A stretch of 64,000 nt of DNA from Hydrogenimonas sp. (lineage in GTDB: Bacteria > Campylobacterota > Campylobacteria > Campylobacterales > Hydrogenimonadaceae): contig AP019005.1 of the NCBI GenBank assembly GCA_003945285.1, positions 1,178,001 to 1,242,000 of the forward strand, in the 5' to 3' direction. The notes under the pieces are model-generated. The model saw only the letters and a list, made by a program, of their open reading frames with translations. It was not told where the DNA came from and ran no database searches. Each line of letters opens with the position of its first letter. Within the stretch, counting starts at the first letter, position 1. This document shows, piece by piece, positions 9,642 through 46,963 of the stretch. The translations under genes were made by a program, and so were the position numbers.

Positions 9642-9684
9642 TAGACCCTCCTTCTATTTATCTCCTCATTCGTCTCCACTCTGT

Positions 9685-9963
9685 CTAGATATTTAAAACC
9701 GAATTCCTGCTTCCGAACGGTGTGTTTGATGTGGGGAGAGTCTCGTCATGGATCCACCCGCCTTCTGCGGGGAGATAGCCGAACTCGAATGTGCCGCCTG
9801 CGGGGAGAATTTTCACAATATAGAAATCGCCGTTCTTTTTGCGCTTCATCCGTTCCGCTTTCCAGTCGTTCCAGCTGCCTTTTATCTCTACCGATTCGAA
9901 ACCGTTGCCGTCAACGGTAAACGTGACCCAGGCCCTCTCTCCTTTTCTGGTAATCTTGACCAT
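9685..9963 (-). CDS. Small CBM48/AMPK-type glycogen-binding domain protein
   Basis: A 92-residue protein consisting almost entirely of one carbohydrate-binding E-set domain of the CBM48/AMPK-beta type. Seen: VTFTVDGNGFESVEIKGSWNDW, shortened here to its key GSWNDW turn, then NGDFYIVKILPAGGTFEFGYL and a late GWIHDE. Such domains bind glycogen or maltodextrin. It is the first gene of the glycogen operon, so it may tether or regulate the enzymes on the granule; that role is inferred. AAGGAGGGG precedes the ATG. Its start lies 31 nt after the foot of a repeated leader hairpin (9995-10017). Confidence 0.8.
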   Translation of the reverse strand: MVKITRKGERAWVTFTVDGNGFESVEIKGSWNDWKAERMKRKKNGDFYIVKILPAGGTFEFGYLPAEGGWIHDETLPTSNTPFGSRNSVLNI

Positions 9964-9994: not shown

Positions 9995-10102
9995 TTTTCC
10001 GGGCAAAGCCCGGAAAACGGCGGGGACTGAACGTCCCCTGCACCCCCCTAAAGCTTCGAAATCACAGATTTCGAGACGGCTTCCGCACTTCGTGCAGAGC
10101 CG
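9995..10102 (-). promoter_or_regulatory. Structured leader element, copy in front of the glycogen operon
   Basis: Four hairpins in a row. Hairpin 1 is TTTTCCGGGC / GCCCGGAAAA (9995-10004 and 10008-10017) with loop AAA. Hairpin 2 is GGGGAC / GTCCCC (10022-10027 and 10033-10038). Hairpin 3 is CGAAATC / GATTTCG (10057-10063 and 10067-10073). Hairpin 4 runs 10077-10102. A run of six C and AAGCTT lie between 2 and 3. The same order recurs ahead of pfkA, ppsA and the LOG gene. Between hairpin 1 and the ATG at 9963 lie 31 nt containing AATCAAATAAA and the Shine-Dalgarno. Most likely a 5' untranslated structure read on the minus strand. Confidence 0.7.
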
Positions 10103-10139
10103 GAAAGCAGCTTATAACCTCTTTATACTGAACAGATCC

Positions 10140-10440
10140 CCGGGCAAAGCCCGGAAAACGGCGGGGACTGACCGTCCCCTGCACCCCCCTGAAGCTTCGA
10201 AAACAAGCGTAGCGCAGTTTCTTTAGTAACTGACCTTACGCAAAATTTGTCCCCCCCGGGATTTGAGCGGAAAAATATCGTTCAAAAAACCGCGCCTGCC
10301 CGTCAGGACGCCGAAGGCGTCAGCGGTTTTTAGATATTTTGCAGCGTCCCGCAGGGCAAATCCCGCTCGGCGTGCGAATTTTGTGTAAGGTCAGTTAGTA
10401 AATCACAGATTTCGAGACGGCTTCCGCACTTCGTGCAGAG
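10140..10440 (-). repeat. Second, interrupted copy of the leader element
   Basis: A tandem copy begins 141 bases beyond the first: CCGGGC-AAA-GCCCGG at 10140-10154, then hairpin 2 and the C-run up to 10200. It is broken at the third hairpin. The rest of the block (atc-aca-gatttcg, then hairpin 4) resumes at 10402-10440. What lies between is a short unrelated segment (10200-10229) plus a 165-bp inverted-repeat element with its target duplication (10223-10401). The remaining bases to 10577 hold no recognisable gene. Confidence 0.7.
10230..10394. mobile_element. 165-bp MITE-like inverted-repeat element, copy 1
   Basis: Ends in near-perfect terminal inverted repeats: CTGACCTTACGCAAAATT at the left and the complement of CTGACCTTACACAAAATT at the right. 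It is flanked by a 7-bp direct repeat TTAGTAA (10223-10229 and 10395-10401), which looks like a target-site duplication. The inside is also palindromic: CGGGATTTG pairs with CAAATCCCG, and a central GACGCC-GAA-GGCGTC hairpin sits within a longer AAAACCGC/GCGGTTTT stem. It codes for nothing. A second copy of identical length is at 41099-41263. No transposase is in the window, so it would be a non-autonomous element moved in trans. Confidence 0.85.
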
Positions 10441-10577
10441 CCGGAAAGCAACTCGTAACCCTTTATACAGAACTGATCCCCCGGGTAGGCCCGGACATCC
10501 CTCACTGAAGTTTCGGAACCGCTGTCTCGCTCCGAATGTAAGCCAACCTGTTTTATTATAACCAAATACGGCACCGC

Positions 10578-11566: not shown

Positions 11567-11674
11567 TTTTCCGGGCAAAGCCCGGAAAACGGCGGGGACT
11601 GACCGTCCCCTGCACCCCCCTGAAGCTTCGAAATCACAGATTTCGAGACGGCTTCCGCACTTCGTGCAGAGCCG
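11567..11674 (-). promoter_or_regulatory. Structured leader element in front of pfkA
   Basis: Full four-hairpin block. Hairpin 1 is TTTTCCGGGC (11567-11576), loop AAA, GCCCGGAAAA (11580-11589). It is followed by GGGGAC/GTCCCC, the C-run with GAAGCTT, CGAAATC/GATTTCG and the terminal CGGCTT...GCCG hairpin ending at 11674. Spacing from the hairpin foot to the pfkA ATG is 29 nt and contains GATTCAATCAAATAAA before the Shine-Dalgarno. This copy is nearly identical to the one at 9995-10102. Confidence 0.7.
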
Positions 11675-11710
11675 GAAAGCAAATCGTAACCTCTTTATGA
11701 CAGAACAGAA

Positions 11711-11778
11711 CCCCGGGGCAAAGCCCGGAAAACGGCGGGGACTGACCGTCCCCTGCACCCCCCTGAAGCTTCGAAACA
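11711..11778 (-). repeat. Partial tandem copy of the pfkA leader element
   Basis: Starts about 142 bases beyond the first copy. Hairpin 1 is imperfect here (one extra G in CCGGGGC against GCCCGG). Hairpin 2 and the C-run with GAAGCTTCGAAA are intact, then the similarity stops. The next 160 bases run up to the pyruvate kinase start and include its putative promoter. Confidence 0.6.
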
Positions 11779-11902
11779 GACGGAGCACACATTTCAAGAG
11801 GGCCGCCGCATATCCTGAAGATATGCTGCCGGATTCTACACACTCCGAAGCTAAGAGCTCAAAAACGGGAGCTTCGGTAACCTCTTTGTATCATCAGGGA
11901 TG

Positions 11903-23206: not shown

Positions 23207-23360
23207 TTGACGCTACGCAAAAACATATCGCCACCTGGAAATCCGAGATTTACCAAAGAAACCGCACTTCGCTTGTTTTGTAATATCAGTGCATTCGGTG
23301 GACGGTCACTATCCGCCGAAACGTTGGCTTTGTCCAAGCTTTGCGTAACATTCGGTCAGC
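23207..23360. repeat. Possible diverged inverted-repeat (MITE-like) element after the MCP gene
   Basis: Left end TTGACGCTACGCAAA and right end (complement) CTGACCGAATGTTACGCAAA both resemble the CTGACCTTACGCAAA ends of the 165-bp elements, the right one with five extra bases. Length is about 150 bp. The inside includes a 33-base stretch (23247-23279) related to the insertion site of element copy 1. No clear target duplication is seen, so identity is uncertain. Confidence 0.35.
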
Positions 23361-40785: not shown

Positions 40786-40894
40786 AAATAGTGGGCAAAG
40801 CCCACTATTTGGCGGGGACTGACCGTCCCCTGCACCCCCCTAAAGCTTCGAAATCCGAGATTTCGAGACGGCTTTTGCACTCTGTGCAACGCCG
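40786..40894 (-). promoter_or_regulatory. Structured leader element in front of the ppsA operon
   Basis: Hairpin 1 is AAATAGTGGGC (40786-40796), AAA, GCCCACTATTT (40800-40810): a perfect 11-bp stem whose outer part is unlike the pfkA copy but still fully paired. GGGGAC/GTCCCC, the C-run with AAAGCTT, CGAAATC-CGA-GATTTCG, and a final hairpin with TTGCAC-TCT-GTGCAA follow to 40894. A partial second copy lies at 40921-40960. Spacing to the ppsA ATG is 29 nt with CAATCAAAT. Confidence 0.7.
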
Positions 40895-40920
40895 GACAGC
40901 AGCCTGGACTCTCCGCGGCA

Positions 40921-40960
40921 GGGCAAAGCCCACTATTTGGCGGGGACCGGCCATCCTCTA
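40921..40960 (-). repeat. Remnant tandem copy of the ppsA leader element
   Basis: GGGCAAAGCCCACTATTTGG followed by CGGGGACCGGCCATCCTC, a decayed hairpin 2. The left arm of hairpin 1 is mostly lost. The remaining bases to 41090 are AT-rich with no recognised feature. Confidence 0.5.
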
Positions 40961-41098: not shown

Positions 41099-41263
41099 CT
41101 GACCTTACGCAAAATTTGTCAGCCCCGGGATTTGAGCGGAAAAATATCGATCAAAAAACCGCGCTTGCCCGTCAGGGCGCCGAAGGCGTTAGCGGTTTTT
41201 AGATATTTTGCAGCGTCCCGCAGGGCAAATCCCGCTCGGCGTGCTGATTTTGCGTAAGGTCAG
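41099..41263. mobile_element. 165-bp MITE-like inverted-repeat element, copy 2
   Basis: Same length and internal plan as the element at 10230-10394, differing at a handful of positions. Ends are CTGACCTTACGCAAAATT and its near complement. Flanked by an exact 8-bp direct repeat TTAGGATA (41091-41098 and 41264-41271), consistent with a target duplication. It sits between the ppsA leader and the end of the crp-like gene and disrupts no reading frame. Confidence 0.88.
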
Positions 41264-41299
41264 TTAGGATATATGAAGAGACGGATCGGCGAAATCGGT

Positions 41300-42009
41300 T
41301 TAGAGGTTGTATCTCTCTTTGAGGTGTTCCAGCTCTTTTACAAGCAGTTTTCCGCGCTTTGAGAGAATCAGCCCCTCTTCTCTCATTCTGTTCAGTTGTG
41401 TAGTGACTACCGATCGTACGGACCCTATCATCTCTGCCATGGTTTCGTGGGAAATTCGATTTATCAGATGTACGGGAGAGTGTTTATTCTCTTCACTGCC
41501 GGCATCTGTATGTTTGAGAATGAGTTTCGCCAACCTGGTGGCGGTGTCGTCGAATACCAGGCTCTCGGAAAACGATTCGAGCTGCCGCATCATACCGCCC
41601 AGATATGGCAGCATCATCGCATTTAGCTCCGTAAATTCGGTAAACCATCTTCTCGCTTCATCCATAGGTGCTCGCAGAATGAGGCTGTTTTGCAGCGTTA
41701 CCGGAAAAGTTATATGTTTTTTTCCATCAAGAAGTGAGAAAACGTCGAAAACATCTCCCGCATGAAGAACGAAAGGAGCTATGCTCCTTCCGCTTCCAGG
41801 ATCTGTCAGGAGCAGTTTCACTCCACCGCTTATGACGATATTGAAGAGTTCCACACCCTCATCGTTGTCTATCGAAACAGATTTTTATAGGTTTCGCAAC
41901 TGCACCTGGGTAGAATATCGTCCAGTTCGTTCTCTCTCAAGCCTCCGAAGAGCCGGCTCGATTTCAAAACATCCAGACTCTGCTTGTAGCATGGTGAAAT
42001 TTTCTGCAT
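41300..42009 (-). pseudogene. Crp/Fnr-family regulator interrupted by a frameshift
   Basis: Two frames together make a complete regulator. The N-terminal piece starts at ATG 42009 (GGAGGGCAGAGAGT upstream) and reads DVLKSSRLFGGLRENELDDI...CETYKNLFR before a TAG near 41873. The rest continues in the -1 frame as SIDNDEGVELFNIVISGGVK, with the C-terminal helix-turn-helix ISHETMAEMIGSVRSVVTTQ to 41300. One extra base in the TTT run would restore the protein (about 235 residues). No cysteine cluster of the Fnr type is seen. It could be a true pseudogene, a phase-variable gene or a sequencing error at AAAAA or TTT. Downstream of the unknown helical gene at 42047. Confidence 0.75.
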
Positions 42010-46752: not shown

Positions 46753-46863
46753 CAAAAAATGGGCAAAGCCCATTTTTTGGCGGGGACTCTCCGTCCCCTG
46801 CACCCCCCTGAAGCTTCGAAATCAGAGATTTCGAGACGGCTTTCGCACTTCATGCAAAGCCGG
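46753..46863 (-). promoter_or_regulatory. Structured leader element in front of the LOG gene
   Basis: Hairpin 1 is CAAAAAATGGGC (46753-46764), AAA, GCCCATTTTTTG (46768-46779): a perfect 12-bp stem whose outer sequence differs from all other copies. It is followed by GGGGAC-TCTCC-GTCCCC, the C-run with GAAGCTT, CGAAATC-AGA-GATTTCG and the last hairpin to 46863. Foot to ATG spacing is 29 nt. On the minus strand the stem is followed by TTTTTT, so this copy could also work as a terminator. Confidence 0.7.
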
Positions 46864-46885
46864 ACAACCGTTTGCACTCTTCGGT

Positions 46886-46963
46886 AAACAAAGCCCATTT
46901 TTTGGCGGGGACTCTCCGTCCCCTGCACCCCCCTGAAGCTTCGAAATCAGAGATTTCGAGAGG
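46886..46963 (-). repeat. Tandem second copy of the LOG-gene leader element
   Basis: ACAAAGCCCATTTTTTGG, then hairpin 2, the C-run and hairpin 3 as in the first copy. The left arm of hairpin 1 is missing. It ends 20 bases before the DUF4010 stop. Confidence 0.6.

Follow-up and report, generated by a model that had tools for sequence, protein, structure and literature searches.

In the window, by which we mean the whole 64,000-nucleotide stretch of the Hydrogenimonas sp. source genome analysed here, the gap after the phosphofructokinase gene (pfk) contains a 165-bp element that lies between two copies of TTAGTAA (10223-10401 in all) and is bounded by 17-bp terminal inverted repeats differing at one position (Table 1); the first-pass annotation's 165-bp inverted-repeat element with target duplication is thus confirmed. 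The element has no coding capacity (0 overlapping ORFs of at least 100 aa), and by its features it is a MITE, that is, a non-autonomous DNA transposon. A matching mobile family is present: a blastn search of the genome (one contig, 2.19 Mb) with the 165-bp element gives 41 matches, one of which is a member of the T5 family described below, and about 40 dispersed copies, here called family A, carry target duplications of 7-8 bp. The 7-mers flanking these copies agree perfectly in 13 of 36 cases and to within one base in 19 of 36, and the observed mean was reached by 0 of 20,000 shuffles; three copies show 8-bp duplications, and the target consensus is TTANTAA. The end motif of the family (type T1) has five matches in the window where 0.11 are expected, and 120 genome-wide against 0 for the reversed control motif.

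Table 1. Repeat features of the window, with window coordinates
Feature	Position	Strand	Remark
Family B core, uninterrupted tandem copy	9999..10126	+	
Host repeat, family B (second repeat family), variant B'	10140..10460	+	interrupted by the element
Left target-site duplication TTAGTAA	10223..10229	+	equals family target consensus TTANTAA
MITE, family A, T1 ends	10230..10394	+	165 bp
Left terminal inverted repeat CTGACCTTACGCAAAAT	10230..10246	+	
Conserved structured core	10246..10376	+	positions covered by models R1/R2
Core apex, stem AAAAAACCGC / GCGGTTTTT around two small hairpins	10284..10331	+	T-run, both strands
Right terminal inverted repeat CTGACCTTACACAAAAT	10378..10394	-	1 mismatch
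Right target-site duplication TTAGTAA	10395..10401	+	
Family B/B' element, T1-like ends	23207..23356	-	holds uninterrupted target 23247-23279; limits approximate
Second MITE copy	41099..41263	+	156/165 identical; TTAGGATA duplicated both sides

Two minor features accompany the family A copies. A T5-end remnant (GAGACGGATCGGCGAAATC) adjoins the second T1 copy of the window at 41272-41300, and L019, L022-L025, L027, L030, L040 and L154 carry near the apex either TTTAGAGGTGCCC or a longer stretch bounded by its ends, inserts that look like remnants of another small element.

When the element was used to search genomes of the same genus, blastn matched its positions 31-149 and not its ends, and G007 and G013 have that core, at about 75-82% identity, flanked by other ends; this within-genus homology is independent of the structure models R1 and R2 introduced here. 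The core forms a long, imperfect hairpin that has a bulge of conserved, GTTA-like sequence and a three-way-junction tip, in which a stem AAAAANNGC / GCNNTTTTT encloses two small hairpins. RNAalifold, applied to 40 copies from four species, gives double compensatory changes in 18 of 32 pairs, while in a set of 65 distinct copies, drawn from 30 genomes, 93.5% of cells are paired, double changes affect 29 of 32 pairs and the covariation is 0.584, compared with 0.19 for shuffled and 0.07-0.11 for slid controls, the models having been built from and fitted to core structures so that the pair counts lean towards those structures. Kept across genera are the GTTA-type bulge opposite a single A, the two side hairpins, and the AAA/TTT and CCC/GGG blocks, which are invariant. 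Model R1 detects the core in 36 or more out of 399 Campylobacterales genomes, from at least 11 genera, and the broader R2 returns more matches; with eight candidates scored per genome in these searches, copy numbers are lower bounds. The matches span genomes of about 31% to 63% GC, and in 20 genomes outside the phylum the core model gave no positive (0/20). Pattern matches to the core in unrelated genomes were set aside as chance or plain terminators, the model finding nothing there. No Rfam family matches the core above its gathering score, and a pattern match marks a putative terminator-like site at 10307-10321 on the plus strand.

The core was found between at least five end types, among them types with target duplications of 7-8 bp (T1), 3 bp (TNA; T2) and 10 bp (T4). 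T1 elements (CTGANNTTACGCA; 163-166 bp in total; 7-8-bp duplications) occur in the source genome and in G083 and G053 (two other families of the order), T2 elements (TACCAATCC; about 218 bp; TNA duplicated in 11 of 13) in G007 and G001, and T3 ends (about GGCACTGACTAAAT) in G013, families f15 and f18. T4 ends (CAGGGCTGTTTCA), with a 10-bp duplication in 4 of 6 copies, come from G246, and T5 ends consist of CGGTAATTCAAAAC outside GAGACGGGTCGGC in the Hydrogenimonas sp. source genome. The G013 ends had at one stage been read as GAGTGGCAG, which was wrong, the true ends lying further out (TGACTAAAT, T3). On a tree built from the cores, end type has to change seven times or more, and the T5 cores of the source genome cluster with G007's T2 cores (100/99) rather than with the T1 cores of their own genome.

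Within the source genome, T1 and T5 end types coexist and are accompanied by T1/T5 chimeras: L175 is of type T1 up to the apex and T5 beyond it, L042 is a T5 element with one T1 end, and L135 has a T5 body and a T1 end. The chimera joins fall inside the shared element, in one case at the core apex, which suggests that core-sharing elements recombined or that the template was switched from one to another. Nested insertions are also seen, both in L170, where a T2 element sits within another core-bearing element, and in the window, where A sits within B'; the order in which swaps and nestings took place is something we infer. A third MITE, with CTGATGTTACGCA ends, a TTAGGAA duplication and an unrelated interior, lies inside a core-bearing T2 element of G007 (L128:910-1178). 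With at least five kinds of ends around the core, one module seems to have been carried by several unrelated transposition systems.

Our working view of the core is that its fold is put to use as DNA or RNA and that it may, as a side property, terminate transcription in both directions; its conserved asymmetry would argue for use of the fold. Tentatively, the core may be a selected portable nucleic-acid module that would correspond in bacteria to the highly conserved domains found in SINEs; it might move between unrelated transposon families via recombination within the core, its fold being the part in use, and this fold could perhaps have been kept across Campylobacterales for a host protein, for the transposition process or for an RNA. 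The nearest parallel we found is the V domain, a highly conserved domain of SINEs that is carried by the MER6 MITE (PMC6887750). Like the core, such domains are non-coding and pass between mobile-element families, whereas the V domain of MER6 went from a eukaryotic retroelement to a DNA transposon (PMC6887750) and the core is bacterial and has a covarying secondary structure.

It appears doubtful that the element is an ordinary MITE with a passive, left-over interior and a functionless core that owes its structure and covariation solely to hairpin-templated (quasi-palindrome) correction during replication. The arms of one copy do agree more closely than arms that have been shuffled (mean mismatches 1.03 against 1.50), in keeping with arm-to-arm correction following an end swap, and copy-specific ends are matched on both sides, for example in L020 and L212. 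This likeness of arms within a copy also tempers the case for selection on the core, since part of the covariation could be hairpin-templated correction. Correction alone, however, should erase asymmetry, and the asymmetric bulge, the side hairpins and the invariant blocks have been kept.

Two further proposals for the core are unlikely to about the same degree. According to one, it would be a small or regulatory RNA gene spread by transposons, with neighbouring genes or the transposase as its targets, a proposal to which the three-way junction with compensatory changes over genomes of such different GC content and the runs of T on each strand of the stem at the apex lend some weight, but against which stand the lack of an Rfam family and of any promoter-like site seen in the element, as well as a gene context that equals background. 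According to the other, it would be a portable terminator of transcription in both directions, through which insertions are tolerated and its carriers survive. The compensatory changes that maintain the AAAAANNGC...GCNNTTTTT stem would suit such a role; yet termination would call for a simpler apex, and of 30 copies, 27 of which lie outside predicted ORFs, 14 are in tandem, 11 in divergent and five in convergent context, so that relative to the window convergent sites are not enriched (5/30) nor divergent ones depleted (11/30). This background-like placement gives no support for selection as terminators. As a separate observation, at the divergent sites L004, L014, L024 and L028 of the source genome the element is often 21-24 bp from a predicted ORF start to one side, a spacing that would place the promoter in or very near the element.

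The repeat that the element interrupts is a copy of family B (variant B') and corresponds to that family's interior. Elsewhere in the genome and in other species, family B has ends of the same type (CTGA[C/T]NTTACGCAAA) and 7-bp duplications, and the element at 10230-10394 is therefore a MITE within a copy of another MITE-like repeat, in agreement with the earlier proposal of an insertion into a repeat at a point fixed by an uninterrupted relative. Removal of the element and one TTAGTAA joins the flanks into a 33-mer that agrees with the complementary strand of 23247-23279 at 29 of 33 positions, as that proposal had stated, against at most 21 of 33 in a shuffled-window control (one strand). 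Better empty paralogues exist at genome positions 1338499 (32/33) and 584262 (31/33). In all, the target occurs five times in the genome, three times empty (1201247, which is window 23247, together with 1338499 and 584262, 23247-23279 being the most diverged) and twice filled at the same nucleotide, in both cases TTAGTAA (1188230, the element at window 10230, and 1247837). The comparison drawn by the first-pass annotation thus holds insofar as 23247-23279 is an uninterrupted relative that fixes the insertion point, but it is not a same-locus empty allele; we rejected that status, as the site is a diverged paralogue within another family B copy. The search for an empty site in relatives, which the annotation had suggested, covered 13 relatives from the same genus for which both flanking genes could be seen: in each of them the orthologous gap that follows pfk lacks the element, and in one, G012, a family B element lies at another place nearby. 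That the two filled targets are copies of one A-in-B' composite rather than two insertions is improbable: the same nucleotide is indeed filled in both, but the A copies fall into separate subfamilies (one with a GGTGCCC insert), their flanks differ, and with TTAGTAA agreeing with the family consensus target two independent hits are plausible.

As to the source of movement, the transposase flanked by the element ends that the annotation had proposed to look for was not found in the source genome or in the relatives examined. The source genome has no PF01609 match, none of the PF01609 transposases of relatives (genus plus 30 other genomes) is flanked by T1 ends, and no autonomous T1 element was detected as T1 end pairs with duplications up to about 4 kb apart at loci of the own genome, at other loci of the genus, or in plasmids and phages, and viral contigs gave nothing beyond chance-like matches. 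We therefore infer the helper transposase; it may be lost or reside in other genomes, leaving the element possibly stranded, which lowers the claim of parentage and not the MITE class. Movement by a tyrosine (HUH) transposase in the manner of REPINs, which the hairpin and the many extragenic copies might recall, is highly improbable, as target duplications (here 7-8 bp) and true terminal inverted repeats are not expected of RAYT-type movement. REPINs (RAYT) and the element are both non-autonomous extragenic hairpin units, and the element differs in its duplications, its long terminal repeats, its much greater length and a core kept across genera (PMC3116915). A closer candidate is the ISPepr1 subgroup of the IS4 family, with 7-8-bp repeats, 5'-CT ends and AT-rich targets, all of which the element shares, and with an end consensus YT-AA-YTT---A (PMC2266710). 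T1 ends agree with this consensus at 6 of 8 positions, having C for A at position 5 and A for T at position 9; as ISPepr1 has a YREK DDE transposase and the source genome no PF01609 match, we have not filed the element as a member, and these points, with the missing autonomous T1 element, weigh against IS4/ISPepr1 parentage.

The reading we favour, at a probability of roughly 0.8, is that of a MITE mobilised in trans which sits in a second MITE-like repeat and has a core of order-wide distribution and exchanged ends. A transposase acting in trans, most likely of the IS4/ISPepr1 kind, would cut at CTGANNTTACGCA ends, and insertion at TTANTAA-like sites would duplicate 7-8 bp, the ends, target and duplication being directly visible in the copies; in this instance the element entered a copy of the second repeat at its TTAGTAA. 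Its interior is a conserved T-shaped hairpin module common to non-autonomous elements with at least five end types in Campylobacterales, the ends of which have been swapped several times, with recombination or template switching between core-sharing elements as the putative source of chimeras.

Like bacterial MITEs in general, the element is short, has no gene, and shows terminal inverted repeats, target duplications, many copies and a long hairpin; unlike them, it has a structured core that is kept over many genera and common to unrelated ends, and no helper was found for it. A search of the open-access literature for MITEs of this bacterial group turned up no earlier description. What is unusual is that a structured core is kept in many genera while being passed between ends that are unrelated. 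The usual expectation for a non-autonomous element is that the ends read by the transposase persist and the interior is lost; here this is reversed, the interior being kept over many genera and the ends and the duplication length varying. This offers a bacterial system for studying how small transposons change helpers, with chimeric intermediates visible in one genome, and for asking what a hitch-hiking structured core is for, and a covariance model is now available to annotate a repeat absent from Rfam.

Family B itself also forms tandem repeats (GGCGGGGACTGACCGTCCCCTGCACCCCCCTAAAGCTTCGAAATC) in the window, at 9999-10126, 10140-10460, 11573-11791, 40793-40959 and 46761-46961, directly upstream of minus-strand phosphofructokinase, nucleotidyl transferase/phosphomannomutase operon, PEP synthase and LOG-like genes, where they may represent a shared leader with a C-rich stretch. 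Close by, a small ORF of less than 100 aa on the minus strand (window about 9660-9963), which begins MVKIT.KG..AWVTFT and resembles a glycogen-binding domain protein, is also kept by relatives in the interval from pfk to the nucleotidyl transferase gene.
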